A stretch of 18,086 bases of DNA from Altererythrobacter sp. (GTDB taxonomy: Bacteria > Pseudomonadota > Alphaproteobacteria > Sphingomonadales > Sphingomonadaceae), in contig WTKI01000396.1 in the NCBI GenBank assembly GCA_011524425.1, forward strand, positions 3,178-21,263. The letters are read 5' to 3'. A program made the translations under genes and the position numbers. This document shows, in pieces, positions 2,620 through 17,630 of this stretch (positions are counted from its first letter, which is position 1; every line of letters begins with the position of its first letter). The notes beneath the pieces were generated by a model, which worked only from the letters and a program-made list of their open reading frames with translations, made no database searches and was not told where the DNA came from.

Positions 2620-5132
2620 GTTGCTGGCTCCAGCTTGAGCACGCCATCAGCAGGTGGGCCTGCAGGCACACTGCCCAAATGACTATGCAGATCAGCCCGA
2701 TCGCCCGCCGCACGCTGTGCCCATGGATCGTCCTGACTGAACTTTTGCGAATAGCGGAACCGTTCAGCTAGAGCAGGCACAGTCGCGGGATCATCATAAA
2801 GCTGCGATTTGATCCATTCGAGGCCCTTGCGCTCCAGCCATGGCGCTGTGCGTTCCAGATACCATGCATCTTCACGGTAAAGTTGAACGAAAGCAGCGCA
2901 ATGCTCCAGCGCCTCTTCTTCAGTCTCCACCCGGATCAGGAGATCGGTTGCACGCACCTTGATCCCGCCATTGCCGCCAATGTGCAATTCATAGCCGCTG
3001 TCGACGCATACGACCCCAAAGTCCTTGATCGTCGCTTCTGCGCAATTACGCGGGCAGCCGCTCACAGCCATCTTGAATTTATGAGGCATCCAGCTGCCCC
3101 AGCTCATCTGTTCAAGCTTTACCCCAAGTCCAGTGGAATCCTGTGTTCCGAAGCGGCACCATTCGCTGCCAACGCAGGTTTTTACCGTGCGCAAGGCCTT
3201 GCCATAAGCATGGCCTGACACCATCCCTGCAGCGTTCAGATCCGCCCAAACAGCAGGCAGGTCCTCTTTTTTGATACCAAAGATATCAAGCCGTTGACCG
3301 CCAGTGACTTTCACCATCCGGGCTTCGTATTTCTCGACCACATCGGCAATGGCACGCAGCTCGCGCGGGTTAGTGATGCCGCCCCACATGCGCGGAACTA
3401 CAGAGTAAGTGCCGTCCTTCTGGATATTTGCATGGAGCCGTTCATTGACGAACCTGCTCTTTTGATCATCGACATATTCGCCGGGCCATGCGCACAGGAG
3501 ATAGTAGTTCAATGCCGGACGGCACGAAGAGCATCCGTCAGGCGTTGACCAATGCAGCTCTTGCATGACCTCAGGGATAGCCTTGAGTTGCTTCTCAAGG
3601 ATCAAACGGCGCACATCATCATGTCCAAAGCTTGTGCATTTGCACATGGTCTTTGCGCCTTGCTCAACTTCATCCCCCAATGTGAGCGCGAGCAGGTTTT
3701 CAACCAGATCTGTGCATGAGCCGCAGCTTGCAGATGCCTTGCACTGAGAGCGCACTGCATCCAGACTATGCGCGCCTCCATTGATACATCCGACAACCTG
3801 GCCTTTTGAAACGCCGTTGCAGCCGCAAATCTCTGCTTCGTCAGAGAGTGCTGCAACGGCCGCCTTAGGGTCCGCGAGCGCACCTCCCGACGCGAAGGCC
3901 TGCCCGAATATGAGCGCCTCCCTTATCTCCGATATATCCTCCTCGTTTCGGAGGAGATCGAAATACCAATTGCCGTCTTGGGTATCGCCATAAAGGACAG
4001 CGCCAACAACGCGGTTGTCCTTAACGACGACCCGCTTGTAGATCCCGCGTGACGCATCGCGCATGACGATGTCTTCGCACTCTTCACCGCCGGAAAAATC
4101 GCCTGCGGAAAAGAGGTCCACGCCAGACACTTTCAATTTCGTTGACGTGACAGAACCAGTGTAGGCTTTGGGCGTTTCGTTTAGTCCTGCGGCAAGCGAG
4201 CGGCACATATCCCAGATCGGCGCGACAAGGCCATAACAGGCACCGCGGTGCCGAATGCATTCCCCGACTGCCAGAATGTTGGGATCCGATGTTACCATAT
4301 GGTCATCGACCAGGATGCCACGTTCAACATCAATGCCGGATGCTTTTGCCAGCACTCCATTGGGACGAATACCAACGGCCATCACAACAAGGTCAGCATC
4401 GATCACGGTATCGTCTTTCAGCCGAACGCCGCTAACCTTGTTGTCTGTTTCCAGAATTTCCGCAGTGTCCGCGCCGGTCATGATCGTCATGCCGCGTCCT
4501 TCAAGCTCGCTCTTGAGCAGGAAGCCAGCAGCTTCATCAAGCTGACGCTCCATCAACGTTGGCATTAAGTGCAATACCGTTACATCCATGCCGCGCAAGG
4601 ACAGACCATGCGCTGCCTCGAGCCCTAGCAAACCGCCTCCGATGACGACCGCCTTGCTGCTATTCTTCGCAGCGCTCAACATCGTCTCGACGTCGTCGAG
4701 ATCGCGGAATGTCACAACTCCAGACAGGTCATTTCCCGGAACCGGAATAACAAAAGGATCAGATCCGGTAGCGATCAGAAGCTTGTCATAACTTGCGATC
4801 TTTCCGCTGCGAGAAACCACCTGACAGGCCTCGCGGTCGATATGGATCACAGGGTCGCCTGATATCAGACTGATATCGTTCTCGTCGTACCATTCTTGCG
4901 AATTGATAACGATTTCATCGAATGTCTTCTCGCCTGCCAGGACAGGAGAAAGCATGATGCGGTTATAATTGACCCTCGGCTCGGATCCGAAAATGGTAAT
5001 GTCAAACCGATCGGGCGACAGCGCAAGGATCTCTTCCACGGCACGACAACCCGCCATGCCATTGCCGATCACGACAAGTCGCTCTTTCTGATCGCCACTT
5101 ATGGCGCTCTCAAAGCTGGTTTGTGCGTTCAC
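2616..5132 (-). CDS. nirB: Nitrite reductase (NADH) large subunit
   Basis: Takes electrons from NADH through FAD and iron-sulfur centres to siroheme and reduces nitrite by six electrons to ammonium in the cytoplasm. It has 838 residues, normal for NirB. Visible in order: FAD-binding VIGNGMAG (about 21-28); NADH-binding VVIGGGLLG (about 162-170); a BFD-like [2Fe-2S] motif with C436, C438, C470 and C473; a second cysteine set (C497, C499, C534, C537) that looks like another BFD-like unit; a sulfite/nitrite reductase ferredoxin-like half-domain (about 570-635); and the siroheme/[4Fe-4S] ligands C653, C659, C693 and C697. The start is GTG at 5132, with AAGAGG six bases upstream. It lies 130 bases after the outer membrane barrel gene and overlaps nirD. 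Siroheme synthase is not in the window. Confidence 0.96.
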   Translation of the reverse strand: MNAQTSFESAISGDQKERLVVIGNGMAGCRAVEEILALSPDRFDITIFGSEPRVNYNRIMLSPVLAGEKTFDEIVINSQEWYDENDISLISGDPVIHIDREACQVVSRSGKIASYDKLLIATGSDPFVIPVPGNDLSGVVTFRDLDDVETMLSAAKNSSKAVVIGGGLLGLEAAHGLSLRGMDVTVLHLMPTLMERQLDEAAGFLLKSELEGRGMTIMTGADTAEILETDNKVSGVRLKDDTVIDADLVVMAVGIRPNGVLAKASGIDVERGILVDDHMVTSDPNILAVGECIRHRGACYGLVAPIWDMCRSLAAGLNETPKAYTGSVTSTKLKVSGVDLFSAGDFSGGEECEDIVMRDASRGIYKRVVVKDNRVVGAVLYGDTQDGNWYFDLLRNEEDISEIREALIFGQAFASGGALADPKAAVAALSDEAEICGCNGVSKGQVVGCINGGAHSLDAVRSQCKASASCGSCTDLVENLLALTLGDEVEQGAKTMCKCTSFGHDDVRRLILEKQLKAIPEVMQELHWSTPDGCSSCRPALNYYLLCAWPGEYVDDQKSRFVNERLHANIQKDGTYSVVPRMWGGITNPRELRAIADVVEKYEARMVKVTGGQRLDIFGIKKEDLPAVWADLNAAGMVSGHAYGKALRTVKTCVGSEWCRFGTQDSTGLGVKLEQMSWGSWMPHKFKMAVSGCPRNCAEATIKDFGVVCVDSGYELHIGGNGGIKVRATDLLIRVETEEEALEHCAAFVQLYREDAWYLERTAPWLERKGLEWIKSQLYDDPATVPALAERFRYSQKFSQDDPWAQRAAGDRADLHSHLGSVPAGPPADGVLKLEPAT

Positions 5133-5192
5133 GATATACCTCTTCCATTCACAATTCTACGCGCCTTGATGGTCACGTCCGGCGAGCAATTT

Positions 5193-5222
5193 CGGGGGAG
5201 AAGGACCATGCCCTCTCCCCCG
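5193..5222 (-). other. Strong intergenic hairpin between the barrel gene and nirB
   Basis: In the 130-base gap 5133-5262, the minus-strand RNA can form a 12-base-pair stem: CGGGGGAGAGGG against CCTTCTCCCCCG, with loop CAUGGU. One pair is G-U on the minus strand and would be an A-C mismatch on the plus strand, so the structure fits transcripts of this operon better than antisense ones. No U-run follows, so a simple intrinsic terminator is unlikely. An mRNA-stabilising or processing stem that sets relative amounts of upstream and downstream messages is a reasonable inference. Apart from the nirB ribosome binding site, nothing else stands out in this gap. Confidence 0.6.
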
Positions 5223-5262
5223 CAACATGCGCTTGCACTCGCAAACAAGCCCACGTCCTGCA

Positions 5263-6468
5263 TCAGAACTTGATCCCAGCCTGCAGCCAGAATTTCTCAG
5301 TATCGACGCCAAAGCCGTTGGCATTGTAGCTGGCGTATTTCGCAAGGATGCCGAATTTGCCGAGCTTAAAGCTTAGAACTGCATCGACTTCGCTGCCGTA
5401 ATCGATACCTCCGACGTCACTGTCGAACTCGTGATAAGTAACCGCAGCCTTCAGCCCCGGAATTGCTTTAACTTTGAAAGCCTTGCTTGCTGTGATGTAG
5501 CTGTCACGCAGGCCTGTTGCCGGTGTAGCCAAGAACAGGTCAGCAAAACCGTTATAGGCGTGCAAAGTCGCTAAAGGAGTTTGAAAGCCTGCAATGCCGC
5601 CATCGCTGCCTAGCTCTTCATAGCCAGCTTTCAAACCGAAGCCTGAAACAGAGCCACCCAACTCCACACTGATATAATCAGCGCTGTAGTCAGTGGGATT
5701 GTCACCCACGTCTGACTGTGTCGCGTAACTCGCTTTAGCATTGAGCTTCACAGGACCGGCAGGGATCGCGGCTTTGGCTTCAACGCCATAGGTCTGGCTA
5801 GAGAATGCCAAGCGGGTATCGTAGTCGATGGTATAGGAAAACGCTGTAATCGTAATAGGCTTCAGATCGATATCGCCGCGCAGCAAGATGAAGTCACCTT
5901 CGAATTCTTCATTAGGGCTGCGCTCGCCAAAAATCGTGCGCTGCGCGATTGCGTAAGTCGCGTCTAATTTGACTGGACCCACTTTAGTCTTAGCCCGGAT
6001 CGCATCATATGTTTGCTCGTTCTGACGCCAGCCGACATTGCCGACCCAGCGGGCACCGGGATGAATGATACGCTGACGGCCAATGGTCACGCTGGTGGCG
6101 CCTGACGTGTAATCCGCTTGCAAACGGTTCAATTCAAAGTTGCCCGGGTCCGCGACAACAGAAAATGGTTCGATCCCGTCGCTCGGGATTGTGTTGTTAA
6201 AGTCATTGACCAGCTCGGCGGTGCCTTCAGCCTCTGCCAGAATGCTAAAGCCACCTTTCTTCAATTGCAGGCCTGCACGTGCACGAACGGTCAATGCGTC
6301 GGCATCACCCGCAGCGTTGTCTTGAGCCACTGATTCATACCGCATGACTATATCGACATGTGGTTTAACCTCGATTGCATCTGAGCTTTCAGATTCTTCG
6401 TCAGCCAGAGCAGGAGTGCTCAAGACAATCGCTGAAGTAGCAGCAAGCAGTGAAATTGAACGGCGCAT
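5263..6468 (-). CDS. Outer membrane beta-barrel protein, alginate-export family; probable nitrate porin
   Basis: A 401-residue protein with an N-terminal signal peptide (about 1-22, ending in PALA). The mature part alternates polar and hydrophobic residues and ends in phenylalanine (AGIKF), the usual outer-membrane barrel insertion signal. The block GRQRIIHPGARWVGN, followed by GWRQN, resembles the alginate-export (AlgE-like) porin family. It sits between the ATPase of the nitrate importer and nirB in the same operon. From that I infer it lets nitrate or nitrite cross the outer membrane; the true substrate is not visible in the sequence. The ATG at 6468 has a near-perfect ribosome binding site (AGGGAGG, five-base spacing), stronger than those of its neighbours, suggesting high expression. 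Domain assignment is from pattern recognition only. Confidence 0.82.
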   Translation of the reverse strand: MRRSISLLAATSAIVLSTPALADEESESSDAIEVKPHVDIVMRYESVAQDNAAGDADALTVRARAGLQLKKGGFSILAEAEGTAELVNDFNNTIPSDGIEPFSVVADPGNFELNRLQADYTSGATSVTIGRQRIIHPGARWVGNVGWRQNEQTYDAIRAKTKVGPVKLDATYAIAQRTIFGERSPNEEFEGDFILLRGDIDLKPITITAFSYTIDYDTRLAFSSQTYGVEAKAAIPAGPVKLNAKASYATQSDVGDNPTDYSADYISVELGGSVSGFGLKAGYEELGSDGGIAGFQTPLATLHAYNGFADLFLATPATGLRDSYITASKAFKVKAIPGLKAAVTYHEFDSDVGGIDYGSEVDAVLSFKLGKFGILAKYASYNANGFGVDTEKFWLQAGIKF

Positions 6469-6624: not shown

Positions 6625-8325
6625 TCAGGCTGCCTTAGCAACCGGACCGTGATCGTATTCAGCGAGGAAGTGCAACACTTCCTGCCGGTATTCGTAAAAC
6701 TTTGGATGCTCGAGCAATTCCTTGCGATCGCGCGGCCGCGGCAAGTCCACTTGCAAAACCTTGCCAATGGTCGCGCGCGGACCGTTAGTCATCATAACTA
6801 CCCGGTCTGCCAACAAAATTGCTTCATCAACGTCGTGCGTAACCATGATTGCTGTCACCTTGGTCCGATTCCAGGTTTCGACCAGCACATCCTGCAAATC
6901 CCACCGGGTCAAACTGTCCAGCATCCCGAAAGGCTCGTCGAGCAACAGCAATCGCGGTGACAAAGCAAAGGCGCGAGCAATGCCTACACGCTGGCGCATT
7001 CCGTTCGACATTTCAGCCGCAAGCTTGTCTTTCGCGTCAGCAAGGCCGACCCGGTCGAGGTAGTAATCTACGATGTCGCGACGCTCTGACTTGGCGGCAT
7101 GCGGGTATACCCTTTCAACACCCAGCTCGACATTTTGCCGAGCGGTTAGCCAAGGCATAAGGCTAGGCGCTTGGAAGACCACGGCCTTGTCCGGGCCTGC
7201 AGAGGTGATTTCACGGTTATCTAGAACGATACCGCCGCCAGTGATCTCGTTAAGGCCGGCTGCCATGGTCAGAACAGTCGACTTGCCGCAGCCTGAGTGC
7301 CCAATCAGCGAAATGAACTCGCCTTTGTCCATCAGCAGGTTGAAATTCTCTACGACTTTCAGCGGCCCCTTGGGTGTCGGGTATACCTTGTCGAGCTTGA
7401 AGAACTCCAGATAACGCTTTTCTACAGCACTCTTTGCGGCGTCTTGGTAAGCCTGAGGCGGAGAATTGGCTTCCTCGGGCGCAAGATCAAGCGGGGTGAC
7501 TTGAGGCAAATCGATTGCGCTCTCGCCAACAGTTCCGCTTTCAGCATTCAAAGAACCCAGGTAACTGACGATCTCTTTGCGAAGGCTCTGGTACCCAGCA
7601 TCATCATTGATTGCCTCGCGATCGCGGGGGCGAGCTACGTCCACTTCATAGATTGTGCCGATTTTCGCAGCTGGCGCTGGTGTGAGAACAGCAATCCTGT
7701 CTGCCAGAAGCAAAGCCTCATCAACGTCATTGGTAACAAGAAGGATTGTCCGTCCCTCTTCCTTGCGGATTCGTTCGATCTCGTCCTGCAATTTAGCGCG
7801 AGTCAAAGCATCCAGCGCAGATAGCGGTTCATCCAGCAACAGAATTTCTGGTTCCATTGCAAGTGCCCTTGCAACGGCCACACGCTGTCGCATACCACCG
7901 GAAAGCTGAGCGGGCTTGCGATCCATCGCGTGGTCAAGCCCGACCAACGCGACCTTTTGCTGGACGAGCGCTGCTCGCTCTTCCTTGCTGCGGTCCTTAT
8001 GCACCGCATCAACGGCAAGCGCGACATTCTGCTCAACACTAAGCCAAGGAAACAACGAATAGGACTGGAAGACCAAGCCCCGTTCGCGGTCCGGCCCATC
8101 GATTGCCTTGCCGCGCAATGTGATCGAACCGGAATCGGGTTCAACCAAGCCGGCAATGCTTGAGATAAGCGTCGTCTTTCCCGCACCTGAAAAGCCCAGA
8201 ATTGCGACGAACTCGCCCTCCTGCATATCCAGATCGATGCCGTCGAGGACCTCGGTTACACCGCCTGTCTTGCCGGTGTAGGCCTTCTTGACGCCTTTTA
8301 GCGAAAGAAATGGAGTGTCTGTCAT
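6625..8325 (-). CDS. Nitrate ABC transporter ATPase with two fused nucleotide-binding domains (NrtC/NrtD type)
   Basis: Energises nitrate import through NrtB. It has 566 residues and two complete ABC domains in one chain, whereas cyanobacteria use separate NrtC and NrtD proteins. Domain 1: Walker A GFSGAGKT (44-51), signature LSGGM (141-145), Walker B ILLLDE (161-166). Domain 2: Walker A GHSGCGKS (342-349), signature MSNGM (439-443), Walker B LLLLDE (459-464). A linker of roughly 230-310 joins them. The switch histidine is present in domain 2 (VTHD, H497), but domain 1 reads VTND (N199), so one ATP site is probably degenerate. The start is ATG at 8325, with AAGG about eight bases upstream. 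An in-frame TTG at 8340 would overlap the nrtB stop and is less likely. Each domain is followed by PRPRDR, as in other nitrate/taurine-type ATPases. Confidence 0.93.
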   Translation of the reverse strand: MTDTPFLSLKGVKKAYTGKTGGVTEVLDGIDLDMQEGEFVAILGFSGAGKTTLISSIAGLVEPDSGSITLRGKAIDGPDRERGLVFQSYSLFPWLSVEQNVALAVDAVHKDRSKEERAALVQQKVALVGLDHAMDRKPAQLSGGMRQRVAVARALAMEPEILLLDEPLSALDALTRAKLQDEIERIRKEEGRTILLVTNDVDEALLLADRIAVLTPAPAAKIGTIYEVDVARPRDREAINDDAGYQSLRKEIVSYLGSLNAESGTVGESAIDLPQVTPLDLAPEEANSPPQAYQDAAKSAVEKRYLEFFKLDKVYPTPKGPLKVVENFNLLMDKGEFISLIGHSGCGKSTVLTMAAGLNEITGGGIVLDNREITSAGPDKAVVFQAPSLMPWLTARQNVELGVERVYPHAAKSERRDIVDYYLDRVGLADAKDKLAAEMSNGMRQRVGIARAFALSPRLLLLDEPFGMLDSLTRWDLQDVLVETWNRTKVTAIMVTHDVDEAILLADRVVMMTNGPRATIGKVLQVDLPRPRDRKELLEHPKFYEYRQEVLHFLAEYDHGPVAKAA

Positions 8326-8336
8326 CGCTACCACCT

Positions 8337-9416
8337 TCAAACCGTGCGGTTCTTGGAAGCGAGAGATTGCAAACTCATCATTGTACGATCGAGTAGAAAA
8401 CCGATCAGACCAATCACAACTACCGCGAACATGATCCGAGCCAAGCTGAGCGAGCTTCCGTTCTGGAATTCATCCCACACAAACTTACCCAGACCCGGGT
8501 TCTGCGCCAGCATCTCTGCCGCGATAAGAACCATCCAGCCCACGCCCAGTGACAGCCGCATACCAGTGAAAATGTAAGGCAAAGACGCTGGCAGCACCAA
8601 CCGGGTGAGCTTTGCAAACCAGCCGAGGCGCAGCACTTTGCCCACATTGAGCAAGTCCTTGTCGATCGAGCTCGTGCCAACCGCCGTGTTGATCAAGGTC
8701 GGCCAAAGCGAACACAGCATCACAACCAATGCAGAAATCACGAAGGCTTTCGGCAGTAAAGGATCCGCGCTTGTGATCATGGCGGAAATGACCATCGTCA
8801 CAATCGGCAGCCATGCCAGTGGGCTGACGGGCTTCATGATCTGGATCAGCGGGTTGATCGCCGCGTTGAAACGCGATGACAGGCCTGCCATCAATCCGAT
8901 CGGCACAGCAAAGATCGTCGCAAGCACAAAACCAAGCGCAACTGTTTGCAGCGATGTAAAAATCTGATCGAGGAATGTCGGCGGCCCGGCATATTCGAAA
9001 TCGCGCACGGCGCCAGGATTGCCCGCCGCAATAGCTGCTGCATTGTTAGCATCCTGCTGAGCGTAGAACGCCGCTTCAGCCTCCTTGGCAGCTCCGTATT
9101 CGGTATATAGTCCTGCTCCCGCTTCAGCCACTTCAAACGGCCCTGGCAGCGTGCCCAGGGAGGTGTCGACCTGAGGTGCCAACACCGCCCAGAGCCCGAG
9201 AAATGATACAATCCCTACGATCGGCCAGAGAAGATCGGACGCGAAGCCCTTCACCTTTGCCAGCACAGGATTAGGCGGAGCCTGTTCCGTCTCGCTGGTT
9301 TCAGGTGAGCTTTCCACTTCAACCGCGGCATCTGCCAAGGTTTCGGTTGGAGAAACGCTTTCAGTCTCTGCCTGCATGCTGGAAGGCTCATTTGGATCTA
9401 GATAAGCAGTCGCCAT
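8337..9416 (-). CDS. nrtB: Nitrate ABC transporter permease
   Basis: Inner-membrane subunit of the nitrate importer, 359 residues, longer than the roughly 280 usual for cyanobacterial NrtB. The extra length has two parts: an acidic, Ser/Thr/Glu-rich N-terminus (about 1-50) before the first membrane segment (about 61-80), and an Ala/Glu-rich loop (about 97-145) before the second. The rest is a binding-protein-dependent permease domain with several hydrophobic segments. The coupling region around VGKVLRLGWFAKLTRLVLPA (258-277) corresponds to the EAA loop that contacts the ATPase. The ATG at 9416 has AGGAG nine bases upstream. It follows nrtA by 47 bases and precedes the ATPase gene by 11. Confidence 0.93.
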   Translation of the reverse strand: MATAYLDPNEPSSMQAETESVSPTETLADAAVEVESSPETSETEQAPPNPVLAKVKGFASDLLWPIVGIVSFLGLWAVLAPQVDTSLGTLPGPFEVAEAGAGLYTEYGAAKEAEAAFYAQQDANNAAAIAAGNPGAVRDFEYAGPPTFLDQIFTSLQTVALGFVLATIFAVPIGLMAGLSSRFNAAINPLIQIMKPVSPLAWLPIVTMVISAMITSADPLLPKAFVISALVVMLCSLWPTLINTAVGTSSIDKDLLNVGKVLRLGWFAKLTRLVLPASLPYIFTGMRLSLGVGWMVLIAAEMLAQNPGLGKFVWDEFQNGSSLSLARIMFAVVVIGLIGFLLDRTMMSLQSLASKNRTV

Positions 9417-9463: not shown

Positions 9464-10891
9464 CTAGCTGCCGCTGACGCCCGCAGCTGTCACGCTCTGA
9501 CCTTGCTTAAGGCCGATCGGGAATTTGCTGAGGTATTCGTTAGGCTTCGAACCATCATAAGTGATGCCATCGATAAAGCCGTCCTGTTCACCGCGATAAC
9601 CGTCGGTTTCTGGCACGCTCTCAGCCGGGATCACACCGTCTTCGACAAGCTTGTTTGCAGCGGCGAGATAAAGGTCGGGACGGTACACCGCTTTAGCAGT
9701 GTCAGCATACCATTCATCGCTCTTGTCTTCTGAAATCTGGCCCCATCGGCGCATTTGCGTGAGGTACCAAACCGCATCGGAATAATACGGATAACCCGCG
9801 AATTTGTCGAAGAAGATATTGAAGCCTTCAGCTTCGCGAGTGTCGCCCGGTTCGAACGTGAAAACACCTGACATTGAAGCTGCAATCACTTCAGCATCTG
9901 CCCCCACATAATTTGGACGCGCAAGGATTTCCACGGCTTCCTGACGATTTGCGCCGCCATCTGCATCAAGCCATTGCTGCGCTTTAATGATGGCCCGCAG
10001 CATAGCTGCCGTAGTTGCAGGATATTTCTCAGCGAAGTCTTCGCGCAGGCCAAAGACTTTCTCCGGGTTATCATTCCAGATCTGATCGTCAGTGATCACC
10101 GGAACACCGATTTTCTTGAAAACGGCCGCCTGGTTCCAAGGCTCACCAACGCAATAACCTTCAATTGTGCCCGCTTCCAATGTTGCTGGCATCTGTGGAG
10201 GAGGTGTCACGGACAGTTTTACGTCAGCGTCGATTACGCCCTGCACATCTCCGTCTGAATAGTAACCCGGCTTCAAGCCACCAGCCGCAAGCCAGTAGCG
10301 CAGTTCGTAATTGTGCGTGCTTACAGGGAACACCATTCCCATGTTGAACGGCTTACCCTGAGCTTCAAATTCTGCCACTACAGGCTTCAAATGCTCAGCA
10401 GAGATCGGGTGCTGAGGACGTCCATCTTCCATCTTCGGTAGATCGTCCTTGATCATGTCCCAGACCTTATTCGACAGCGTGATGGCATTGCCATTAAGGT
10501 CAAGGCTAAGCGGCGCGATCAGATCAGCCTTCGTGCCGTATCCGATAGTTGCCGCCAAAGGTTGGCCTGCCAGCATGTGAGCGCCGTCAAGCTGCCCCCC
10601 GATGACGCCGTCAAGCAGGACTTTCCAGTTGGCTTGTGGCTCAAGCGTTACGTTCAAGCCTTCCTCTGCAAAGAAGCCTTTCTCTTTGGCGATGGCCAGC
10701 GGAGCCATGTCTGTCAGTTTGATGAATCCGAGCTTGAGATTTGGCTTCTCAACCGCGCCGTCAATGCTAGCGGCAACAACCTGTTCCCCGTCAGCTTCCG
10801 CTCCGCCGCCGCAGCCTGCCAGCGCTACGCTGGCCAAAACTGCTGCGATCATTCCGCGGCGATCAAACTTTAGACCCTTAAATCCACTCAT
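9464..10891 (-). CDS. nrtA: Nitrate ABC transporter substrate-binding lipoprotein
   Basis: Captures nitrate (possibly nitrite) in the periplasm and hands it to NrtB. It has 475 residues from the ATG at 10891. The frame is open further upstream to a TTG at 10993, but only the ATG start gives a proper lipoprotein signal: charged N-terminus, hydrophobic core and lipobox LAGC with C27. The longer frame would also read through the leader hairpins. Family-typical stretches are LNGNAITLSN (132-141), HNYELRYWL (193-201) and YCVGEPWN (246-253), all closely repeated in the NasS paralogue upstream. W89, in ANWKVLLDG, may be the ligand-contact tryptophan known in this family. It is the first structural gene of the operon, directly downstream of the antitermination leader. 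Confidence 0.95.
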   Translation of the reverse strand: MSGFKGLKFDRRGMIAAVLASVALAGCGGGAEADGEQVVAASIDGAVEKPNLKLGFIKLTDMAPLAIAKEKGFFAEEGLNVTLEPQANWKVLLDGVIGGQLDGAHMLAGQPLAATIGYGTKADLIAPLSLDLNGNAITLSNKVWDMIKDDLPKMEDGRPQHPISAEHLKPVVAEFEAQGKPFNMGMVFPVSTHNYELRYWLAAGGLKPGYYSDGDVQGVIDADVKLSVTPPPQMPATLEAGTIEGYCVGEPWNQAAVFKKIGVPVITDDQIWNDNPEKVFGLREDFAEKYPATTAAMLRAIIKAQQWLDADGGANRQEAVEILARPNYVGADAEVIAASMSGVFTFEPGDTREAEGFNIFFDKFAGYPYYSDAVWYLTQMRRWGQISEDKSDEWYADTAKAVYRPDLYLAAANKLVEDGVIPAESVPETDGYRGEQDGFIDGITYDGSKPNEYLSKFPIGLKQGQSVTAAGVSGS

Positions 10892-10919: not shown

Positions 10920-10967
10920 AAAAAAACCGCCTCGACACGAACCCTAAAAAGGGTCCTGATCGGGCGG
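10920..10967 (-). terminator. Intrinsic terminator in the nitrate-operon leader (attenuator)
   Basis: On the minus strand CCGCC (10967-10963) pairs with GGCGG (10931-10927), continued by CGA/UCG across a bulged A. An inner ACCC/GGGU helix closes a loop UUUUUA. Seven U (10926-10920) follow immediately. This is a textbook intrinsic terminator placed 28 bases before the nrtA ATG, so it works as an attenuator rather than an end-of-operon signal. Its 5' arm is shared with the second ANTAR hairpin, so the two structures cannot form together. Confidence 0.88.
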
Positions 10968-10979
10968 CTTCGGTGCCAC
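10964..10979 (-). promoter_or_regulatory. ANTAR-target hairpin P2 (antiterminator)
   Basis: GUGGC (10979-10975) pairs with GCCGC (10968-10964), one pair being U-G, and closes the six-base loop ACCGAA. The loop has A at position 1 and G at position 4, the signature of RNA hairpins bound by ANTAR-domain proteins. Four of the five bases of the 3' arm (10967-10964) belong to the 5' arm of the terminator. Stabilising this hairpin would therefore prevent termination. The geometry is seen directly; binding by NasT is inferred from the family. Confidence 0.8.
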
Positions 10980-11011
10980 ACAATGTTGCTCAAAGAGATG
11001 GAGCTATGAAA

Positions 11012-11031
11012 GAAATCCTTCTTTGGATTTC
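11012..11031 (-). promoter_or_regulatory. ANTAR-target hairpin P1
   Basis: GAAAUCC (11031-11025) and GGAUUUC (11018-11012) form a perfect seven-base-pair stem around the six-base loop AAAGAA, again with A at 1 and G at 4. A lower helix GGAGC (11037-11033) with GCUCC (11004-11000) can extend it across an internal loop. It lies 32 bases before P2. Two such hairpins in tandem, the second overlapping a terminator, is the known arrangement for NasR/NasT-controlled leaders. Confidence 0.82.
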
Positions 11032-11064
11032 CGCTCCGTGTGCGAATCGAATAACCGATAGGCT

Positions 11065-11080
11065 GGCTAGTTGCAAACCA
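11065..11080 (-). promoter_or_regulatory. Candidate sigma-54-type promoter of the nrtA operon
   Basis: The minus-strand sequence TGGTTTGCAACTAGCC has the invariant GG and GC separated by ten bases, plus matches to T1, G7 and T12 of the -24/-12 consensus. About seven of eleven specified positions agree. A start about 12 bases downstream would put the transcript roughly 24 bases before hairpin P1, a sensible place. An alternative sigma-70 reading (TTGCAA, then TATTCG after 17 bases) is weaker at -10. Nitrogen-assimilation operons are often sigma-54/NtrC controlled, but rpoN is not in the window, so this is tentative. Confidence 0.35.
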
Positions 11081-11089
11081 CTTTTTGCA
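11072..11089. repeat. 18-base inverted repeat, possible operator
   Basis: TGCAAA, six bases, then TTTGCA: perfect six-base arms just after the nasS stop codon, overlapping the candidate promoter. It is shaped like a site for a dimeric regulator. It resembles an NtrC site (TGCACC and GGTGCA half-sites) only loosely in sequence and spacing. Function unknown. Confidence 0.4.
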
Positions 11090-11097
11090 CCGCAGTA

Positions 11098-12306
11098 TTA
11101 TTTTTGCGATGCAATATATTGCTCCAGCCGGTCTGGATCGAAACTTTCCGAGTCAAAAAACTCGTTACTTTCCAGAATGATAGATCCCTGTTGAGCAGTT
11201 GCAGTTAGGGGTGTGGATAAACTGCCTTCAACCTTGGAACTTGCCCCTGGCAACAGATCGCCCGTGCCCATCAGCGCTGAACGATAAACTCCTGGCCTGA
11301 ATACATTCGCAGCCGCTTCAGCCTGTTTCGGATCATACTCGAGGCCGTCCCAACGCACCATCTGGCTATAGAGCCATTCCGCCTGACTAACCCATGGGAA
11401 GTTTGCAGCTTCACGATACTGGAACATGAAGTCGCAATATTCAACCGGGGCGCAGCCCTGGCTCAATACGAGACGGTCGGAGATGGCCCGATGGACAATT
11501 TCTGCTGGCGCATCGCAATATTCAGGGCGAGCAAGAATCTTCGCGTTCATATCCCAGTTTTCGGGATTGACGAAGTTCTCGCCAGCCTTGCGCATGGCTC
11601 TAATCAAGCCCTCGACTGAGGGCGATATTTCTTCGAGTCGTTCTGCACGAAGCGCAAGGACTTTCTCAACGCCTCTGCGCCAGATCTGCGCGGTAGCCAA
11701 TACGATGTGACCGGCGCCGCGTTCCACGGCCATGCTGTTCCATGGCTCCCCGACACATGATCCATCGATTTCACCGGCCTCTAGAGCATCAGCGCTGAAC
11801 GGCGGTGCAACGGTTACGATTTCCACATCATCATCGGGCCGAATGCCGCATGCTGACAGCCAATAACGCAGCATGTAATTGTGGCTAGAATAACGGTGGA
11901 CGACGCCAAACCGGAGCTTCTTGCCGCTGCTTTTTGCGCGCTCAGCTACTGCCTTTAGCTTGGCACCCAAGGCAAACGGGTCGGCGAGTGTCCCTGCGGT
12001 CCCCAATGCATGAGCTAGCCGGTTCGATACCGTTAAAGCATTGCCATTTAGGCCCAACACAAAGGGTGCCGCTAACTGCTGTGCGGGGCGACCGCGACCC
12101 AAACTCGTCGCAATCGCAAGCGGCGCTAGCAGATGCGCCGCGTCACTATGGCCATAAAGGAGACGATCGAGCACAGTCGCCCAGGAAACATCCCGGACAA
12201 AGCTCAGATTAAGCCCCTCCTCTTCCGCGTAGCCATGTTCCTTCGCCAAAATTGGCAGACAAGCATCGACTAGCGGCAAGAACCCTATTTTCAGTTCGCG
12301 TGTCAC
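11098..12306 (-). CDS. nasS: Nitrate/nitrite sensor NasS, NrtA-like, cytoplasmic
   Basis: A 402-residue paralogue of the NrtA lipoprotein. The shared stretches are LNGNALTVSN (86-95), HNYMLRYWL (142-150) and SCVGEPWN (183-190). Unlike NrtA it starts directly with the mature fold (MTRELKIGFLPL) and has no signal peptide or lipobox, so it should stay in the cytoplasm. In the known NasS/NasT system, NasS holds NasT inactive without nitrate or nitrite and releases it when ligand binds. The start is GTG at 12306, overlapping the nasT stop as GTGA, with AGGGGG six bases upstream. The gene pair and the ANTAR leader immediately downstream make this role firm. It is not an importer subunit of its own, since the only permease and ATPase belong to the neighbouring nrtA operon. 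Confidence 0.92.
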   Translation of the reverse strand: MTRELKIGFLPLVDACLPILAKEHGYAEEEGLNLSFVRDVSWATVLDRLLYGHSDAAHLLAPLAIATSLGRGRPAQQLAAPFVLGLNGNALTVSNRLAHALGTAGTLADPFALGAKLKAVAERAKSSGKKLRFGVVHRYSSHNYMLRYWLSACGIRPDDDVEIVTVAPPFSADALEAGEIDGSCVGEPWNSMAVERGAGHIVLATAQIWRRGVEKVLALRAERLEEISPSVEGLIRAMRKAGENFVNPENWDMNAKILARPEYCDAPAEIVHRAISDRLVLSQGCAPVEYCDFMFQYREAANFPWVSQAEWLYSQMVRWDGLEYDPKQAEAAANVFRPGVYRSALMGTGDLLPGASSKVEGSLSTPLTATAQQGSIILESNEFFDSESFDPDRLEQYIASQK

Positions 12307-12884
12307 AACTCGCCCCCTAGCATTTCATGCGCTGTCACTATTGATTCCGCGATAGTGACAATTCGCCTGTTCGACGACATCGCTTTTTGCCGCAGTTCAG
12401 CATAGGCTTCCGGTTCGCTTATTTTGCGGCTGTCCATAAGGATGCGTTTTGCTTTGTCGATCGTTTCCCTTTGAGCGAGTTTGCCTTTGGCTTCGGCCAG
12501 ATCGGCTTCCAAACGGGCGAACGCATTGAAACGCCGCATAGTCAAATCGAGCAATGGACGAATGCGATTGGCAGCAAGACCGTCTACGACATAAGCCGAG
12601 ACACCAGCATCTATTGAAGCAGCAATGGAATCATCGTCACTCTCGTCAACGAACATCGCGATAGGGCGATCGAGCGCACGGCTGACCGCAAAATATTCTT
12701 CAAGAACGTCACGCGACGGGTTACCGAGGTCCATAAGCACCACATCCGGTCCGATATTCGCGATCCGGCTGAGCAAGCCGTCGCGCGAAGTCACTGTGAA
12801 TATTTCACATTCATCAAGTGACGCGAGACCTTCCTCGATTATCGAGGCACGCGCAGCACTTTCATCGATTATGACGATCCTCAT
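12303..12884 (-). CDS. nasT: ANTAR-domain transcription antiterminator NasT
   Basis: A 193-residue protein with a receiver-like domain (about 1-120) and a C-terminal ANTAR RNA-binding domain (about 128-189, including AKRILMDSRKISEPEAYAEL and the downstream LRQKAM...TIAESIV pattern). In the receiver part D7, E8 and D52 are present, but the usual conserved lysine near residue 100 is not (AYVVDGL), fitting control by NasS binding rather than phosphorylation. The start at 12884 is chosen because MRIVIIDES is the normal beginning of such domains. The open frame extends to 13028 with unrelated residues, and a GTG at 12899 is an alternative. No strong ribosome binding site is seen. The likely target RNA is the pair of hexaloop hairpins at 10964-11031. 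Confidence 0.93.
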   Translation of the reverse strand: MRIVIIDESAARASIIEEGLASLDECEIFTVTSRDGLLSRIANIGPDVVLMDLGNPSRDVLEEYFAVSRALDRPIAMFVDESDDDSIAASIDAGVSAYVVDGLAANRIRPLLDLTMRRFNAFARLEADLAEAKGKLAQRETIDKAKRILMDSRKISEPEAYAELRQKAMSSNRRIVTIAESIVTAHEMLGGEL

Positions 12885-13093
12885 AAAAACTATGTGCACC
12901 GCAGCAAAGCCCTTGTGCAAGTGCGAATTCGAATTCCAGCATGCAATTCTCGCAATTGAAAATTGGTTTTGAGCAATGGTGGTGCGAGGCCAAGCTTGTT
13001 CGCTTAGCGAGGAAACCTCCCCGGCCACTTCCGGTCTTGCATCAGGATAGCCATTCCTTTTCCAAGCCCACTAAACTGCACGGTGAAACTCGC
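12885..13093. other. Divergent intergenic region between nasT and the serine hydrolase
   Basis: These 209 bases must hold the promoters of nasT (leftward) and of the lipoprotein gene (rightward). I could not identify a convincing -35/-10 or -24/-12 pair in either direction. It contains a 12-base palindrome GAATTCGAATTC at 12925-12936 and TGCAC/GTGCA arms about 15 bases apart near 12895-12919, either of which could be a regulator site. The region looks AT-richer than the coding sequence around it. No small gene or RNA was recognised. Confidence 0.5.
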
Positions 13094-14392
13094 ATGAACA
13101 CAAAATCGATCTGCTTGCCATTGATTGCACTCGCCCTTGTGGGATGCGTTTCCCCAACCGACCCCGAGCCAGTTTCCGAAGTTGCAGCTGATAGTGAGGC
13201 AGCTCCAACGGCACGTTATTCCGAAGCTGATGAAGCGGAATATTTGCGCCGCTTCCAACAACTGCTTGAAGATTCTCGAGTTGGCGCCGGCCTGACGGCG
13301 TACGATCCGCTGGAACCTGTCGCAGGTTCGAATGCACATACGCCGTTACCGTTGGCGCAGAACAAGGCGCTGTCAGATGAAGCTATTCAAGCGGCCCGGA
13401 GCTACGCAGCTGAGCGCTCAAGCTCAGCATTCATAATCTGGCAAGACGGTGCCATCCAGCATCAGAGCTATTTCGGTGACTTCGATGCCGAGACGCCCAT
13501 CGTATCCAAATCGCTGGCAAAACCTGTGACCGCGCTTCTGATTGGCCGTGCCCTTAAAGAAGGCCATATCCAGTCGCTCGATCAACCCGTGGCTGATTTC
13601 ATCACGGAATGGAAAGATGATGAGGGACGCTCAAAAATTCTCATCCGCCATTTGCTGGACATGCGTACAGGGCTCCTGCCGCAAGGGTTTAACGCAGATC
13701 CCGATGATATTCTCAACCGCGCTTATCTCCACCCACGCCATGATGAAGTGATCATCAATGACTACCCGATGACGCATGTGCCCGGTGAACGTTATGAGTA
13801 TTCCAACGCCAATTCTGAACTTGTTGCACCCGTCATAGAACGTGCCACAGGAGTGCGTTACGGAGACTTTCTGTCTCAGTCCTTGCTAAAACCGATCGGC
13901 GCAATGGGTGGAAGTATCTGGACCAACCGCGAAGGTGGCACGGCGCATTCGGGCTGTTGTCTGCTTTTGCCTGCTCAAACCTGGGTCCGCATGGGTATGC
14001 TGCTGCTCAATGATGGTGTTTGGGAGGGCGAGCGTCTTTTGCCGGAGGGGTATGTCGCAGAAATGCGTCAAGGAACTGCCGAGAACCCTTATTATGGCCT
14101 CGGTGTATGGCTCACTGGTCCTTACATTTCAAAACGGGGATTTGCTCATCCTGATGTACCCTTTGGCAAGGTTGATCATGCCGAAGCCTATCTCGACAAG
14201 GACTTATTCCTCTTCGACGGCAATTCCAATCAAGTCGTTTACATGATCCCGTCGCAAAACATGATTGTGCTTCGGACGGGTTCTACACCCCCTAAGGACA
14301 GCCCATGGGACAACACATTGCTGCCTAATCTGCTTATCCGGGATTCTGTCGAGCAGTCAGGCAGAAAACTGCCTGAGCCCCAGCCGCGCTAG
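13094..14392 (+). CDS. Serine hydrolase lipoprotein, class C beta-lactamase-like family
   Basis: A 432-residue protein of the serine beta-lactamase / penicillin-binding-like family (Pfam beta-lactamase), of the kind that includes esterases, peptidases and 6-aminohexanoate-dimer hydrolase. The catalytic motifs are S140-L-A-K143 (SxxK), Y236-S-N238 (YxN) and H285-S-G287 (in place of the KTG box). The N-terminus is a lipoprotein signal with lipobox LVGC (C18), followed by a Pro/Glu/Ala-rich tether (about 20-45), so the enzyme is probably anchored to a membrane facing the periplasm. The start at 13094 is chosen for that signal; the open frame runs back to 12941 without a signal. It is the only plus-strand gene here and is not linked in function to its neighbours by anything visible. 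The natural substrate is unknown; antibiotic resistance should not be assumed. Confidence 0.88.
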   Translation: MNTKSICLPLIALALVGCVSPTDPEPVSEVAADSEAAPTARYSEADEAEYLRRFQQLLEDSRVGAGLTAYDPLEPVAGSNAHTPLPLAQNKALSDEAIQAARSYAAERSSSAFIIWQDGAIQHQSYFGDFDAETPIVSKSLAKPVTALLIGRALKEGHIQSLDQPVADFITEWKDDEGRSKILIRHLLDMRTGLLPQGFNADPDDILNRAYLHPRHDEVIINDYPMTHVPGERYEYSNANSELVAPVIERATGVRYGDFLSQSLLKPIGAMGGSIWTNREGGTAHSGCCLLLPAQTWVRMGMLLLNDGVWEGERLLPEGYVAEMRQGTAENPYYGLGVWLTGPYISKRGFAHPDVPFGKVDHAEAYLDKDLFLFDGNSNQVVYMIPSQNMIVLRTGSTPPKDSPWDNTLLPNLLIRDSVEQSGRKLPEPQPR

Positions 14393-15543
14393 CGTTCTTG
14401 CAAGCTCTGAGAGACAGTCTTGGAAATAGGCTTGGTAATATAAGCCCACACGGTTGACTTGCCGGTGAGGATTTCTGCGGTTGCCGTCATGCCAGGCTGC
14501 AAGACAATAGGATCACGATCGCCGGGTTGACGCATGGATGACGTGTCCACTTCAAGATTAACTCTATAATAGGTCTCTGCCGTTCCATCCGGTGCTTGCT
14601 CGGTGAGTGTGTCCGGGCTCACAAAAACAACTTCACCGTTGGCAGAGCCGTAGATCGCATTGTCATAGGTCTCAAAGTTCACGCGCGCGCTTTGGCCGGT
14701 TTTGACGAACGCAATATCGCGCGGCGGGACCCGCGCTTCGACAATCAGTCTTTCACCAACAGGAACAATCTGAAGCACTTCTTCACCCGGCCTGACAACA
14801 CCGCCAATCGTTGAGAATTGGACATTCTTGACGATTCCAGCAGTCGGAGCGGTTAGCGATGCAGCATCCAAGCTATCGCGCGCGCGTGTAAGTTGCTGCT
14901 GCGATGCTGCGAGTTCTTCTTCGGTGCGTGTAAACTCGGCTTGCAGATCGCTGATATATTGCGAGCGAATACTGGAAATCTGCCCACGTGTTTCAACAAC
15001 CGAGCGCTGCATGCGGATAATTTCCGACATCGCAACATCACCGGTTTCAACAAGCGGCTGGTTCAGGTCGAGCTCTTGCTGCTGGAGGTTCGCTAGCTGC
15101 TCCAAAGTCGAAATCTCTGATTGCAATGCAGCGCGGCGCCTTTGGTACAAGCGTTGCTGGTTGGCTGTGAATTCGGGAAAGTCTTCTAGCGAGGCCGGGA
15201 ACCGCAATGGGCGATTGAACAGTTCGGCTTGGATACGCGCCATCCGACTTTCCAGAGCGGCCACTTTCGCACGGTTTTCATTGAGTTCCGCGTTCAATTG
15301 AACCGCGTCCAGTTCGACCAGAAGCTCGCCAGCCTCGACTTGCTCGCCTTCACGCACATGGATCCGCGAGATCGACCCGCCCTGTTCGCTTTGGATAATT
15401 TGGACTCGTGCGAAAGGTATGACTTTCCCTGGCGCACGCGTGACTTGATCAAGTTCGGCCCAATGCGACCAGCCGATAAAGAGCACAAGCACGGCAACTA
15501 TTGTGCCGACTATCATCTTCGCTGGTTTGAGCCGGCTATTCAC
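14389..15543 (-). CDS. Type I secretion membrane fusion protein, HlyD family (LapC-like)
   Basis: Periplasmic adaptor linking the ABC exporter to the TolC-type outer membrane channel. It has 384 residues: a short cytoplasmic start, one membrane helix (about 10-26), a lipoyl-like half (GSISRIHVREGEQVEAGELL), a long Gln/Glu/Arg-rich helical hairpin (about 80-215), the returning lipoyl half (LTAPTAGIVKNV) and a beta-barrel domain with the pattern RVPPRDIAFVKTGQSARV. The start is GTG at 15543, overlapping the exporter stop as GTGA, with AGGTGG about seven bases upstream. The stop (TAG) shares the four bases CTAG with the stop of the convergent serine hydrolase gene. Order and overlap with the exporter gene support the role. 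Confidence 0.92.
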   Translation of the reverse strand: MNSRLKPAKMIVGTIVAVLVLFIGWSHWAELDQVTRAPGKVIPFARVQIIQSEQGGSISRIHVREGEQVEAGELLVELDAVQLNAELNENRAKVAALESRMARIQAELFNRPLRFPASLEDFPEFTANQQRLYQRRRAALQSEISTLEQLANLQQQELDLNQPLVETGDVAMSEIIRMQRSVVETRGQISSIRSQYISDLQAEFTRTEEELAASQQQLTRARDSLDAASLTAPTAGIVKNVQFSTIGGVVRPGEEVLQIVPVGERLIVEARVPPRDIAFVKTGQSARVNFETYDNAIYGSANGEVVFVSPDTLTEQAPDGTAETYYRVNLEVDTSSMRQPGDRDPIVLQPGMTATAEILTGKSTVWAYITKPISKTVSQSLQER

Positions 15544-17630
15544 GATGCACCACCTGGTTTGAGATTTGTCGTGACTCGACCGCTAGGCGGCTGCGAGGCC
15601 TTGCGCATTTCATCAAGGACTTCTTGCGCAGGGCCATCCCGCACGATTTTGCCCTGAGCCATCATAATGATCCGCGAGAATCGCTCTAACAAAGCGATCT
15701 TATGGGTAGTCATCACAAGGATGTCTTCTTTTGCGATTGCGCTTTCGAGCGCGGCAAGGACTGCGCCCTCAGAGGCGAGGTCAAGTGCTGAAGTAGGCTC
15801 ATCCAGCAACCAGACGCCAGGCGATGCGTGGATCATTCGGTTGATCCCGACAATCGCTCGCTGTCCGCCGGAAAGGCCATTGCCGCCTTCATAGATCTGG
15901 GTTTGCAGCCCGCTTTTCTGGTCTCCTAAAAGCGCGTTCAAACGGGTCGCCTGAGCGAGTTTGATAAGTGCGTCGTCCTCCAGGCCGCCCAGCCCCATCG
16001 TGAGGTTATCGCGCAAGGTCCCCCGCACAAGCCTGACTTGCTGCGGCAAATAGCCGATATGACGCCGTACCACATCTTCAGCAATGTGCGACAAATCCAA
16101 TCCGTTGACAGTCACACTTCCCGACTGAGCGCGATAGAGCCCCGCCAGAACTTTGAGCAATGTGGTCTTGCCTGCCCCAACGCCGCCAAGGATCGCGACA
16201 CGCTCTCCGGCTTCGATGCGCAAGCTCTCAATCTCGATCGCTGGTCGCTGATCGGGATAGGCAAAGCCGACCTGCTTTAACAATAGCTCACCGTGCAGAC
16301 TGTCCGGGCGCAATGCCCCACGCGAAACACTCGGTTCTAGCGGCAGGCTCAGAATTCCGTCCAGCATCTTCAGTGCGGACCGCGCATACCCCCATTGCAC
16401 AATCAGGTTCGGCAATTGCGCAACGAGCGGTCCATTGATCCGTCCAACAAGGATGGAGCAGGCAAGCAGAACGCCCGTTGTGATTTCTCCGCGTGCAGCC
16501 AGAATTGCGCCGTAGCACATGACTGCAACATAGGTGAGCTGCTGGAGCGCGGAGAATAGCGAACTGGATACAGCAGACGCGCGTTTGACCGGGTATTCGA
16601 AGTGATGGATGTCCCGCAACAAACGGTTCCAACGGCTCAAAATTGCCCATCCGCCGCGATTGGCTTTGACGGTCTCCGCCGCATCTAGCGCTTCCACCAG
16701 CAAACCGGTCTTCTGATTACCGCTCACCTGCGCGCGTTCAGCGCCATTTCTAATGATTCTCGCAAGCAGCAAGGCAAGCCCTATTGCAATGGGCAAGCTG
16801 GCAATGGGAATGATCGCCATTGAGCCCCCAATCGAAGCGATCACAAAGATGAACAAGAGCGCAAATGGCAGGTCGGCAAAAACGAAGACGGAACTGGATG
16901 ACAGGACCTGTCGGATCTGCTCTTGCCCTTGGAGTTGCGACGCCATGGTCCCAACCGACTGAGGCCTGGCATCGAGCCGGATCGCCTGTGCGCGTGCGAA
17001 GAAAAACTCTGAAACTTCGCGGTCAATGTTCTGTGCTTCAAGTTCGATAAGCAGAGCACGCAGGCTTCTCAAAACCAGATCAAGCAAGAGCGCAATGCCA
17101 ACCCCGACTGTAAGTACAAGCAAGGTCTCGAAACTCGCGAGCGGAATAACCCGGTCATAAAGTTGCATTGCGTAAAATGAGACTGCAAGTGCCAACAGGT
17201 TTGCAAAAACTGTCGCAATGCCTGCGATGACCAACACAGACTTTCGGCGTTTTATGGCCCGTGTAAATACGCTCAAAGCGGAAGTCGTTTCTTCAGCGAG
17301 CGGATCGGGAAGTGACAACACAAAGATGCTTTGCGCGCCGGAAAATGCGATCGGCTTCTTCTCACCTTGCACCAGCATGTGCTCTTCATCATCCCACTGG
17401 ATCGCAACTAGCCAACCATGTTCGGGATCATGGACCAAGACCGGAAACTGATCGGGCCTTGGTCTACCAACAAGGCATTCCGGCTCTGCCCATTCCAGCT
17501 CGCTCTGCAAAGCGTATGGCGCATCGACGCCATCCAATGCGGGATGGCCTTGCAAATCCAGAGCCCACTCTGGCGAGAGCGTCTTTCCGCTTGCCCTTGC
17601 AAATCGCTCGACTGCGGTAATGAAATCCAT
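15540..17630 (-). CDS. Type I secretion ABC exporter (permease-ATPase), LapB-like
   Basis: Exports a protein substrate straight to the outside, driven by ATP. It has 696 residues. The N-terminal ~110 residues resemble a C39-peptidase-like domain but show no convincing catalytic Cys/His, as in exporters that bind rather than cut their substrate. Membrane segments follow (about 133-155, 168-188, 247-292, 366-400). The ATPase domain has Walker A GGVGAGKT (482-489), Q-loop Q530, signature LSGGQ (586-590), Walker B VWLLDE (606-611) with PTSALD following, and switch H643. It starts at ATG 17630, 11 bases after the TolC-family gene, and overlaps the HlyD-family gene by four bases. This layout is like the LapE-B-C systems that export large adhesins. 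No RTX or adhesin gene is in the window. Confidence 0.92.
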   Translation of the reverse strand: MDFITAVERFARASGKTLSPEWALDLQGHPALDGVDAPYALQSELEWAEPECLVGRPRPDQFPVLVHDPEHGWLVAIQWDDEEHMLVQGEKKPIAFSGAQSIFVLSLPDPLAEETTSALSVFTRAIKRRKSVLVIAGIATVFANLLALAVSFYAMQLYDRVIPLASFETLLVLTVGVGIALLLDLVLRSLRALLIELEAQNIDREVSEFFFARAQAIRLDARPQSVGTMASQLQGQEQIRQVLSSSSVFVFADLPFALLFIFVIASIGGSMAIIPIASLPIAIGLALLLARIIRNGAERAQVSGNQKTGLLVEALDAAETVKANRGGWAILSRWNRLLRDIHHFEYPVKRASAVSSSLFSALQQLTYVAVMCYGAILAARGEITTGVLLACSILVGRINGPLVAQLPNLIVQWGYARSALKMLDGILSLPLEPSVSRGALRPDSLHGELLLKQVGFAYPDQRPAIEIESLRIEAGERVAILGGVGAGKTTLLKVLAGLYRAQSGSVTVNGLDLSHIAEDVVRRHIGYLPQQVRLVRGTLRDNLTMGLGGLEDDALIKLAQATRLNALLGDQKSGLQTQIYEGGNGLSGGQRAIVGINRMIHASPGVWLLDEPTSALDLASEGAVLAALESAIAKEDILVMTTHKIALLERFSRIIMMAQGKIVRDGPAQEVLDEMRKASQPPSGRVTTNLKPGGAS

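Follow-up and report, generated by a model that had tools for sequence, protein, structure and literature searches.

The region between nasS and nrtA in an Altererythrobacter contig is read here as the 5' leader of an nrtA-nrtB-nrtCD-porin-nirB operon, in which a nitrate/nitrite-controlled terminator would be governed by NasS/NasT through an ANTAR target (probability about 0.9). The leader holds two hexaloop hairpins, P1 and P2, the second of which forms only at the expense of an intrinsic terminator; loops, stems and spacing are conserved among relatives, and the adjoining genes match NasT and NasS. Binding, release by nitrate and read-through are ascribed to this leader from published work on NasT, NasR and EutV. 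NasS is described as keeping NasT and freeing it with nitrate or nitrite (PMC3795266), and ANTAR proteins as holding P2 against the terminator (PMC3369936). Without nitrate, NasS would hold NasT, P1 and then the strong terminator would fold, and RNA polymerase would stop. With nitrate or nitrite, NasS would free NasT, which would bind the P1 hexaloop and hold P2 folded; P2 would then take the segment GCCGC from the terminator, and transcription would run on into nrtA. Within the known type of ANTAR leader, this one and its relatives are set apart by the P1-P2 spacing and by a purine rule in the P1 loop, two features through which the EutV-based model can be tested on RNA from nature.

Genes and hairpins of the leader

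The window, that is, the whole stretch of DNA analysed, comprises 18,086 nt of Altererythrobacter sp. (GCA_011524425.1, contig WTKI01000396.1, positions 3,178-21,263, forward strand). The assembly is a draft of 431 contigs, 77% complete, and an assembly-wide domain search returned a single ANTAR domain match. This is nasT (12303-12884, minus strand; Pfam ANTAR, 58 bits), encoding an ANTAR antiterminator with a (pseudo)receiver domain. It is followed on the same strand by nasS (11098-12306; NMT1_2, 204 bits), encoding a predicted NrtA-like nitrate/nitrite sensor, the leader, and nrtA (9464-10891; NMT1_2, 323 bits), encoding a nitrate-binding lipoprotein-like protein and presumed to be the first gene of the controlled operon. 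Further along the minus strand lie nrtB (permease, 8337-9416; BPD_transp_1, with TIGR01183 below its own cut-off), nrtCD (double ATPase, 6625-8340; TIGR01184 ntrCD), a gene for a porin-like outer-membrane protein (5263-6468; weak Alginate_exp and Opr porin matches) and nirB (nitrite reductase large subunit, 2616-5132; TIGR02374, 953 bits). Gene names were taken from Pfam and NCBIfam profile searches. Type I secretion membrane-fusion and ABC genes adjoin the nitrate cluster (14389-17630, minus strand).

The PDB relatives of NasT were 1s8n, 6wsh, 4akk and 1qo0. In an alignment to a PDB relative, Tyr209 and Met217 of the NasT ORF fell on EutV Tyr164 and Met172 (chain numbering offset of 2 inferred), and Tyr and Met occupied these positions in 80/80 relatives (55 scored by script, 25 by eye). 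The start of nasT is likely the Met codon at 12884, because many relatives match from residue 48-49 only. The ORF stays open to a GTG at 13028, and this extension (12885-13028, minus strand) overlaps the start of a divergent gene (12941-14392, plus strand) whose product has a Pfam Beta-lactamase (serine hydrolase) domain. In some relatives the tblastn match runs into the extension (e.g. L029, from residue 2). NasS resembles nitrate-binding proteins, its PDB relatives being nitrate transport ATP-binding proteins (8wm7 and others) and NrtA (2g29). When the translations were read by eye, an N-terminal extension or signal peptide was not visible in NasS, and NrtA carried a lipobox-like LAGC. A NasT with an ANTAR domain is thus encoded beside an NrtA-like NasS.

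The leader lies between the end of nasS (11098) and the nrtA ATG (10891) on the minus strand, with about 60 nt between the nasS stop and the leader. P1 and its lower helix span 11000-11037. The upper stem (11031-11025 / 11018-11012) has seven Watson-Crick pairs, in line with the perfect seven-pair stem of the sequence-only reading, plus a G11032.U11011 wobble, and carries the hexaloop AAAGAA (11024-11019). Below it, GGAGC (11037-11033) can pair with GCUCC (11004-11000) across a six-nt 3' bulge (11010-11005). A linker of 20 nt with a loosely conserved AACAUUG (10980-10999) separates the lower helix from P2 (10964-10979), in which GUGGC (10979-10975) and GCCGC (10968-10964) form five pairs including one G.U around the hexaloop ACCGAA (10974-10969). 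Both loops were found on the minus strand with A1 and G4, as had been described, and both are closed by C-G pairs (C11025-G11018 and C10975-G10968); the closing-pair columns, 35/42 and 94/101 of an alignment of 80 leaders (alignment A1, below), were C-G in 79/80 and 80/80 leaders, respectively.

The intrinsic terminator (10920-10971) was recovered by folding and, as a stem, by RNAalifold in the 80 leaders. Its helix runs from 10971 to 10923 and its seven U from 10926 to 10920, the last helix pairs using the first U; the nrtA ATG follows 28 nt past the U run. The earlier proposals that the 3' arm of P2 is also the 5' arm of this terminator, and that the terminator lies 28 nt before nrtA with nasT-nasS directly upstream, agree with both computed folds, with the coordinates and with the profile matches. 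Since GCCGC is paired in both folds, P2 and the terminator exclude each other. In the finished RNA the terminator reached -30.9 kcal/mol by folding and P2 alone -6.7 kcal/mol; the default is therefore predicted to be off, and P2 would have to be held while it emerges. For two RNAs truncated just behind P2, the fold of lowest energy paired a 5' CACAC with GUGUG and lacked P2, which was present in the centroid of one of them; CACAC/GUGUG pairing was rejected as a conserved element after inspection by eye. The RNA strand of the leader folded with z = -5.84 versus shuffles (0/200 as stable), the opposite strand with z = -3.35.

A script for an A1/G4 hexaloop hairpin with its 3' arm overlapping a terminator, run over both strands of the window, returned this leader and nothing else. 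A simple terminator scan of the window did not list the leader terminator. Rfam, consulted for the covariance-model hit that had been suggested as a check, gave 0 matches for the leader at gathering score, and up to E 10 chance-level matches only; the RcsR1 and RybB matches among them (E 2-3) were rejected and look like chance fits to the GC-rich terminator.

A candidate leader promoter, GTTTGC ... GGTTAT (11051-11078, minus strand), was proposed from visual alignment to a CTTTAC ... CG-TTA element that is loosely conserved among relatives. A sigma-70 scan returned no promoter at this place, and with simple scoring the automatic consensus in relatives was weak and its spacings unstable. Right after the nasS stop and upstream of the candidate promoter lies a TGC-NN-TGCAAAAA stretch (11082-11094, minus strand), which by eye recurs in many relatives and is possibly a regulator site.

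Conservation in relatives and second leaders

Relatives were fetched by the NasT protein alone, and the best 80 of 142 contigs encoding a relative (772,917 nt; mostly titled Erythrobacter, Altererythrobacter, Novosphingobium and Croceibacterium) were kept. The leader script matched 1331-1467 nt past the end of the nasT match in 74/80 contigs and farther downstream in L077 and L079. No match after nasT was returned in the remaining four of these 80: L050 and L070 run out no more than about 520 nt past nasT, the DNA at this place in L034 is of another kind as judged by eye, and in L018 the loop sits on a two-pair stem. Elsewhere in the 80 contigs, the script gave 5 matches on opposite strands and about 10 on the nasT strand; among the latter, the match in L029 is a genuine second leader. 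A rule-free check was made by finding a terminator after nasS and then the best 6-loop hairpin overlapping it, A1/G4 not being required. After 2 contigs that ended and 3 without a terminator in the interval had dropped out of the 80, an A1/G4 hairpin sat on the terminator in 73/75 loci; the two exceptions, L018 and L088, have A1/G4 loops by eye, on short stems.

Alignment A1 comprises 80 leaders, namely the window, 77 of the 80 fetched loci and two relatives, L003 and L006. Its members, except the window and L018, were chosen with an AA.. (A1/G4) filter on the P2 loop, and the 80/80 for P2 in this alignment arises by selection. Because of this filter the P2 letters in the alignment are not a fair test, and the rule-free 73/75 is the fair count. 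Unguided RNAalifold on the 80 leaders returned two stems, that of the terminator and the upper one of P1. At the three outer P1 pairs, both sides had changed in 25, 39 and 20 of 80 sequences. P1 and P2 together were paired in 95.1% of alignment cells, versus 85.6% in shuffles and 37-68% when slid, and their covariation score was 0.261 versus 0.085 in shuffles (0/500). Two of the five covariation measures were weak (double-changed pairs, 4 vs 3.0, 11/500; further pair types, 15 vs 13.8, 107/500), and the P2 stem, being nearly invariant, gives no covariation evidence. The recurrence of these elements past nasT-nasS, the compensatory changes in P1, the ANTAR domain and Tyr/Met residues of NasT and the nitrate-binding-like NasS together support, at the level of comparative sequence, the proposed reading as NasT-type antitermination. 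Conservation of both loops in relatives, which had been named as a further check, was found.

An RNA model, R1, was trained on leaders including that of the window, whose own score of 94.4 bits is thus not independent proof. This was the one strong copy in the window's genome (77% complete); the next match reached 17.3 bits (E 0.04), and a second ANTAR leader elsewhere in this genome was rejected on that score. Among 298 genomes of the family, R1 matched in 72 and NasT was present in 95, 70 of the 72 also having NasT (lists compared by eye); R1 without NasT occurred in G544 (23 bits) and G567 (81 bits, genome 78% complete). This co-occurrence is partly trivial, because the leader adjoins nasTS. 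More than one R1 match was counted by eye in 39/72 genomes. Among nine relative loci holding nirB, a second leader stood directly before nirB in six (L195:8311, L196:11792, L197:6897, L198:7300 on the minus strand, L204:8468 and L029:9781); L200 has a leader 1.9 kb upstream of nirB, and the script returned no leader for L202 or L203. Before the window nirB, a second leader was rejected, with nothing above chance at 5133-5262 (4.2 bits, E 1.1). In the window, the porin-nirB interval, which in relatives holds the second leader, contains an inverted repeat without a T run, GGGGGAGA...TTCTCCCCC (5194-5221, minus strand).

A strong terminator standing after nasS could in itself mark the 3' end of the nasS mRNA or act as a constitutive attenuator, free of NasT control and with coincidental hexaloops. 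The conservation of loop letters, stem covariation and spacing over 80 leaders, together with the rule-free count and the similar second leaders immediately ahead of nirB in 6/9 nirB-holding loci, makes this explanation very improbable.

Loop letters and lower helix of P1

For the loop counts, P1 hairpins were chosen with loop letters ignored and a bonus for CC..GG closings. Position 4 of the P1 loop was G in 80/80 leaders, and position 1 was A in 65 and G in 15. The MAFFT columns gave nearly the same counts (G4 79, A1 64, G1 15 of 80), one row being apparently misaligned. The A1/G4 rule put forward by the sequence-only reading therefore holds for the window loops, for P2 in the fair count and for G4 of P1, but A1 is not strict in P1, and in these aligned relatives the A1 rule reads as a purine rule. 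In the EutV crystal structure, G4 is described as stacking on Tyr164 and A1 as having no specific contact (PMC8934654); the retention of G4 while A1 becomes G in some P1 loops fits this picture, in which G4 but not A1 is specifically contacted. Position 5 was C in 0/15 P1 loops with G1, versus 14/65 with A1 (relatedness uncorrected), a hint that a G1-C5 cross-loop pair may be avoided in P1.

The lower helix was assessed by comparing matched 5' and 3' P1 flanks with flanks swapped between leaders. Flank swaps were used instead of pair counts because MAFFT could not align the lower helix by column; RNAalifold on the 80 leaders did not return it. In 58 non-redundant leaders, matched flanks reached -17.65 kcal/mol versus -13.56 ± 0.41 for swapped ones (0/5000 as low). 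With a fixed, narrower geometry the values were -5.86 versus -2.89 ± 0.49 kcal/mol (55 leaders, 0/2000), and, for the geometry tested, 67% of the 55 leaders had a lower helix with 4 or more pairs, versus 40% in swaps. Folding with P1 forced, run without a control, gave wider enclosing helices that left a median of 11 nt before P2, and 5 in the window. Judged by these flank comparisons, the GGAGC/GCUCC helix that had been offered as a possibility is real at group level, and is absent or differently shaped in some members.

Spacing of P1 and P2 and two groups of leaders

The stem-to-stem linker between P1 and P2 is 31 nt in the window and 28-38 nt in 80/80 aligned leaders (median 33); the lower helix would shorten the gap in the window to about 20 nt. 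For this count the choice of P1 was confined to loop gaps of 37-49 nt, which was justified by a count with free gap: an R1/G4 hexaloop hairpin lay 40-47 nt before the P2 loop in 71/80 leaders, the other bins holding 0 (8-15 nt), 1 (16-23), 1 (24-31), 6 (32-39) and 4 (48-55). Native EutV linkers are given as 5-12 nt, with induction drastically reduced at 3 or 14 nt (PMC3369931), and an addition of 20 nt is reported to abolish antitermination (PMC8934654). Actinobacterial ANTAR targets were curated with linkers of 2-25 nt (PMC8164766). The window leader exceeds both the EutV range and the actinobacterial one, and its 31-nt linker therefore counts against the standard reading. The original definition of the ANTAR target permits a variable linker, the short linker being a functional limit or a curation rule in these later works. 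A filter of 2-25 nt, if applied here, would miss the sphingomonad group.

Outside the sphingomonads, linkers were scored in NasT loci drawn from the whole phylum (60 loci) and from families f19, f16 and f37 (20 loci each), which we guess to be Rhodobacteraceae-, Rhizobiaceae- and Pseudomonadaceae-like, respectively. A place was scored if the script recognised a terminator, P2 and an A1/G4 P1 with 5 or more pairs. Scans with 1500-nt flanks had given 5 (f19), 1 (f16) and 0 (f37) P2 places in 30 loci each, and longer stretches were then used; with these, the strict rule for P2 and terminator was passed by 7/20 f19, 16/20 f16 and 8/20 f37 loci. Across the phylum (L101-L157), 27 places were scored, 23 with linkers of 2-8 nt and 4 with 25-47 nt. 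Five f19 places had 30-35 nt, eight f37 places 2-9 nt, and f16 had 2-5 nt at 11 places and 30-34 nt at 4. In total, 42/55 places were short (2-9 nt) and 13/55 long (25-47 nt), with none between 9 and 25 nt; the count is of places, not genomes, the sets overlap in a few genomes (e.g. G083, G114, G249, G234), and chance may account for a few places. Calling the window leader a clean example for comparison was thus misleading, its linker being 31 nt versus 2-9 nt in 42/55 places of other families.

In f16, the P1-P2 loop gap was 40-45 nt in L330-L333, versus 13-15 nt in 11 other loci, so that both spacing classes occur within this family, possibly before different genes. In f19, the loci L295-L314, L124 and L132 often show three hexaloop-like hairpins in a row (distal A1/G4, middle and P2). 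With a looser P2 pattern, 28 f19-type loci (L127 and L205 being one genome) yielded 23 leaders; a distal A1/G4 hexaloop lay 36-45 nt before P2 in 18/23 of these. A scripted count found a middle hairpin in 21/22 leaders, 12 of them with a 6- or 7-nt R1/G4 loop. Applied to the sphingomonad leaders, this loose rule gave such an R1/G4 hairpin between P1 and P2 in 3/80, and any hairpin in 44/80, at scattered positions. The f19 leaders may hold three ANTAR loops, and their middle hairpin could be the true partner of P2.

Two classes of NasT leader, with P1 either 2-9 nt or about 30-35 nt from P2, are accordingly suggested only tentatively, as a conjecture somewhat short of even odds. The long gap would be folded, by the lower helix in sphingomonads and by the middle hairpin in f19, and would be bridged either through hand-over of a docked NasT or by two or more dimers; if so, the EutV single-dimer spacing rule would not be general. 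How ANTAR proteins use two hexaloops is still debated (one dimer on both, or loop after loop), with the EutV spacing limit as a main support for such models, and natural leaders with a much longer, near-fixed gap offer a direct test of EutV-based models. In a literature search covering titles and abstract openings, neither sphingomonad NasT leaders nor a long-linker class was found.

One NasT dimer might serve loops 31 nt apart by early docking and hand-over or across a folded linker, or more than one dimer might be involved. We think that P1 may be an early docking site, which would recruit NasT and hand it to P2. Alternatively, two NasT dimers or an oligomer would span P1 and P2 in a geometry of their own, rather than one dimer visiting both. 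This is doubtful, with roughly one chance in four: NasT is described as being freed from NasS as an oligomer (PMC3795266), and the 55 places fall into two linker groups with none between, but a folded linker could equally serve one dimer.

The spacing beyond the EutV limit also speaks for a reading in which NasT would act through P2 alone, P1 being a separate structural or RNA-stability hairpin. Single hexaloops are bound by EutV (PMC8934654), and NasR is reported to bind P2 on its own, with an affinity about tenfold below that for P1P2 (PMC7496416). Against such P2-only control, R1, G4 and the C-G closing pairs of P1 are kept in nearly all 80 leaders while the outer stem varies freely, and the P1-P2 distance is nearly fixed. 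In Paracoccus, moreover, nasA expression is reported to be crippled when the distal hairpin HI, lying 46 bp upstream of HII, is altered (PMC5424462), HI and HII possibly corresponding to P1 and P2. Control by P2 alone is accordingly judged unlikely.

A Pseudomonas nirB leader is said to be NasS-NasT controlled. The published NasS-NasT leaders of Paracoccus denitrificans nasA and Bradyrhizobium nosR share with the window nasT-nasS, hairpins and a terminator before nitrogen genes, and the freeing of NasT by nitrate that is predicted here (PMC3795266, PMC5424462, PMC6759348); the window differs in its target, an nrt ABC transporter operon with nirB. By their published distance, not by sequence, HI and HII may share the long spacing (PMC5424462). 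The EutV eut leaders likewise have two A1/G4 hexaloop hairpins with conserved closing pairs and a P2 overlapping an intrinsic terminator, but their linkers are 5-12 nt, versus 31 nt in the window (20 nt when counted from the lower helix), and the portions of the EutV reports available here mention no lower helix. The Klebsiella nasF leader with NasR is also described as nitrate-responsive ANTAR antitermination with P1, P2 and a terminator (PMC3369936, PMC7496416); NasR senses nitrate itself through a NIT domain, whereas in the window system a separate NasS is the presumed sensor. In AmiC-AmiR, with the amiE leader, an amide-binding protein is described as controlling an ANTAR antiterminator (PMC3369936); ligand (an amide) and operon differ.

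In f37-type genomes, second NasT-type leaders were seen downstream at L134:5046, L137:6017, L143:6623, L148:4474 and L345:3794 (positions given in the orientation of nasT), the proximal hexaloop lying 12 nt away from the loop of P2; that of L345 also has a distal A1/G4 hexaloop 36 nt away.
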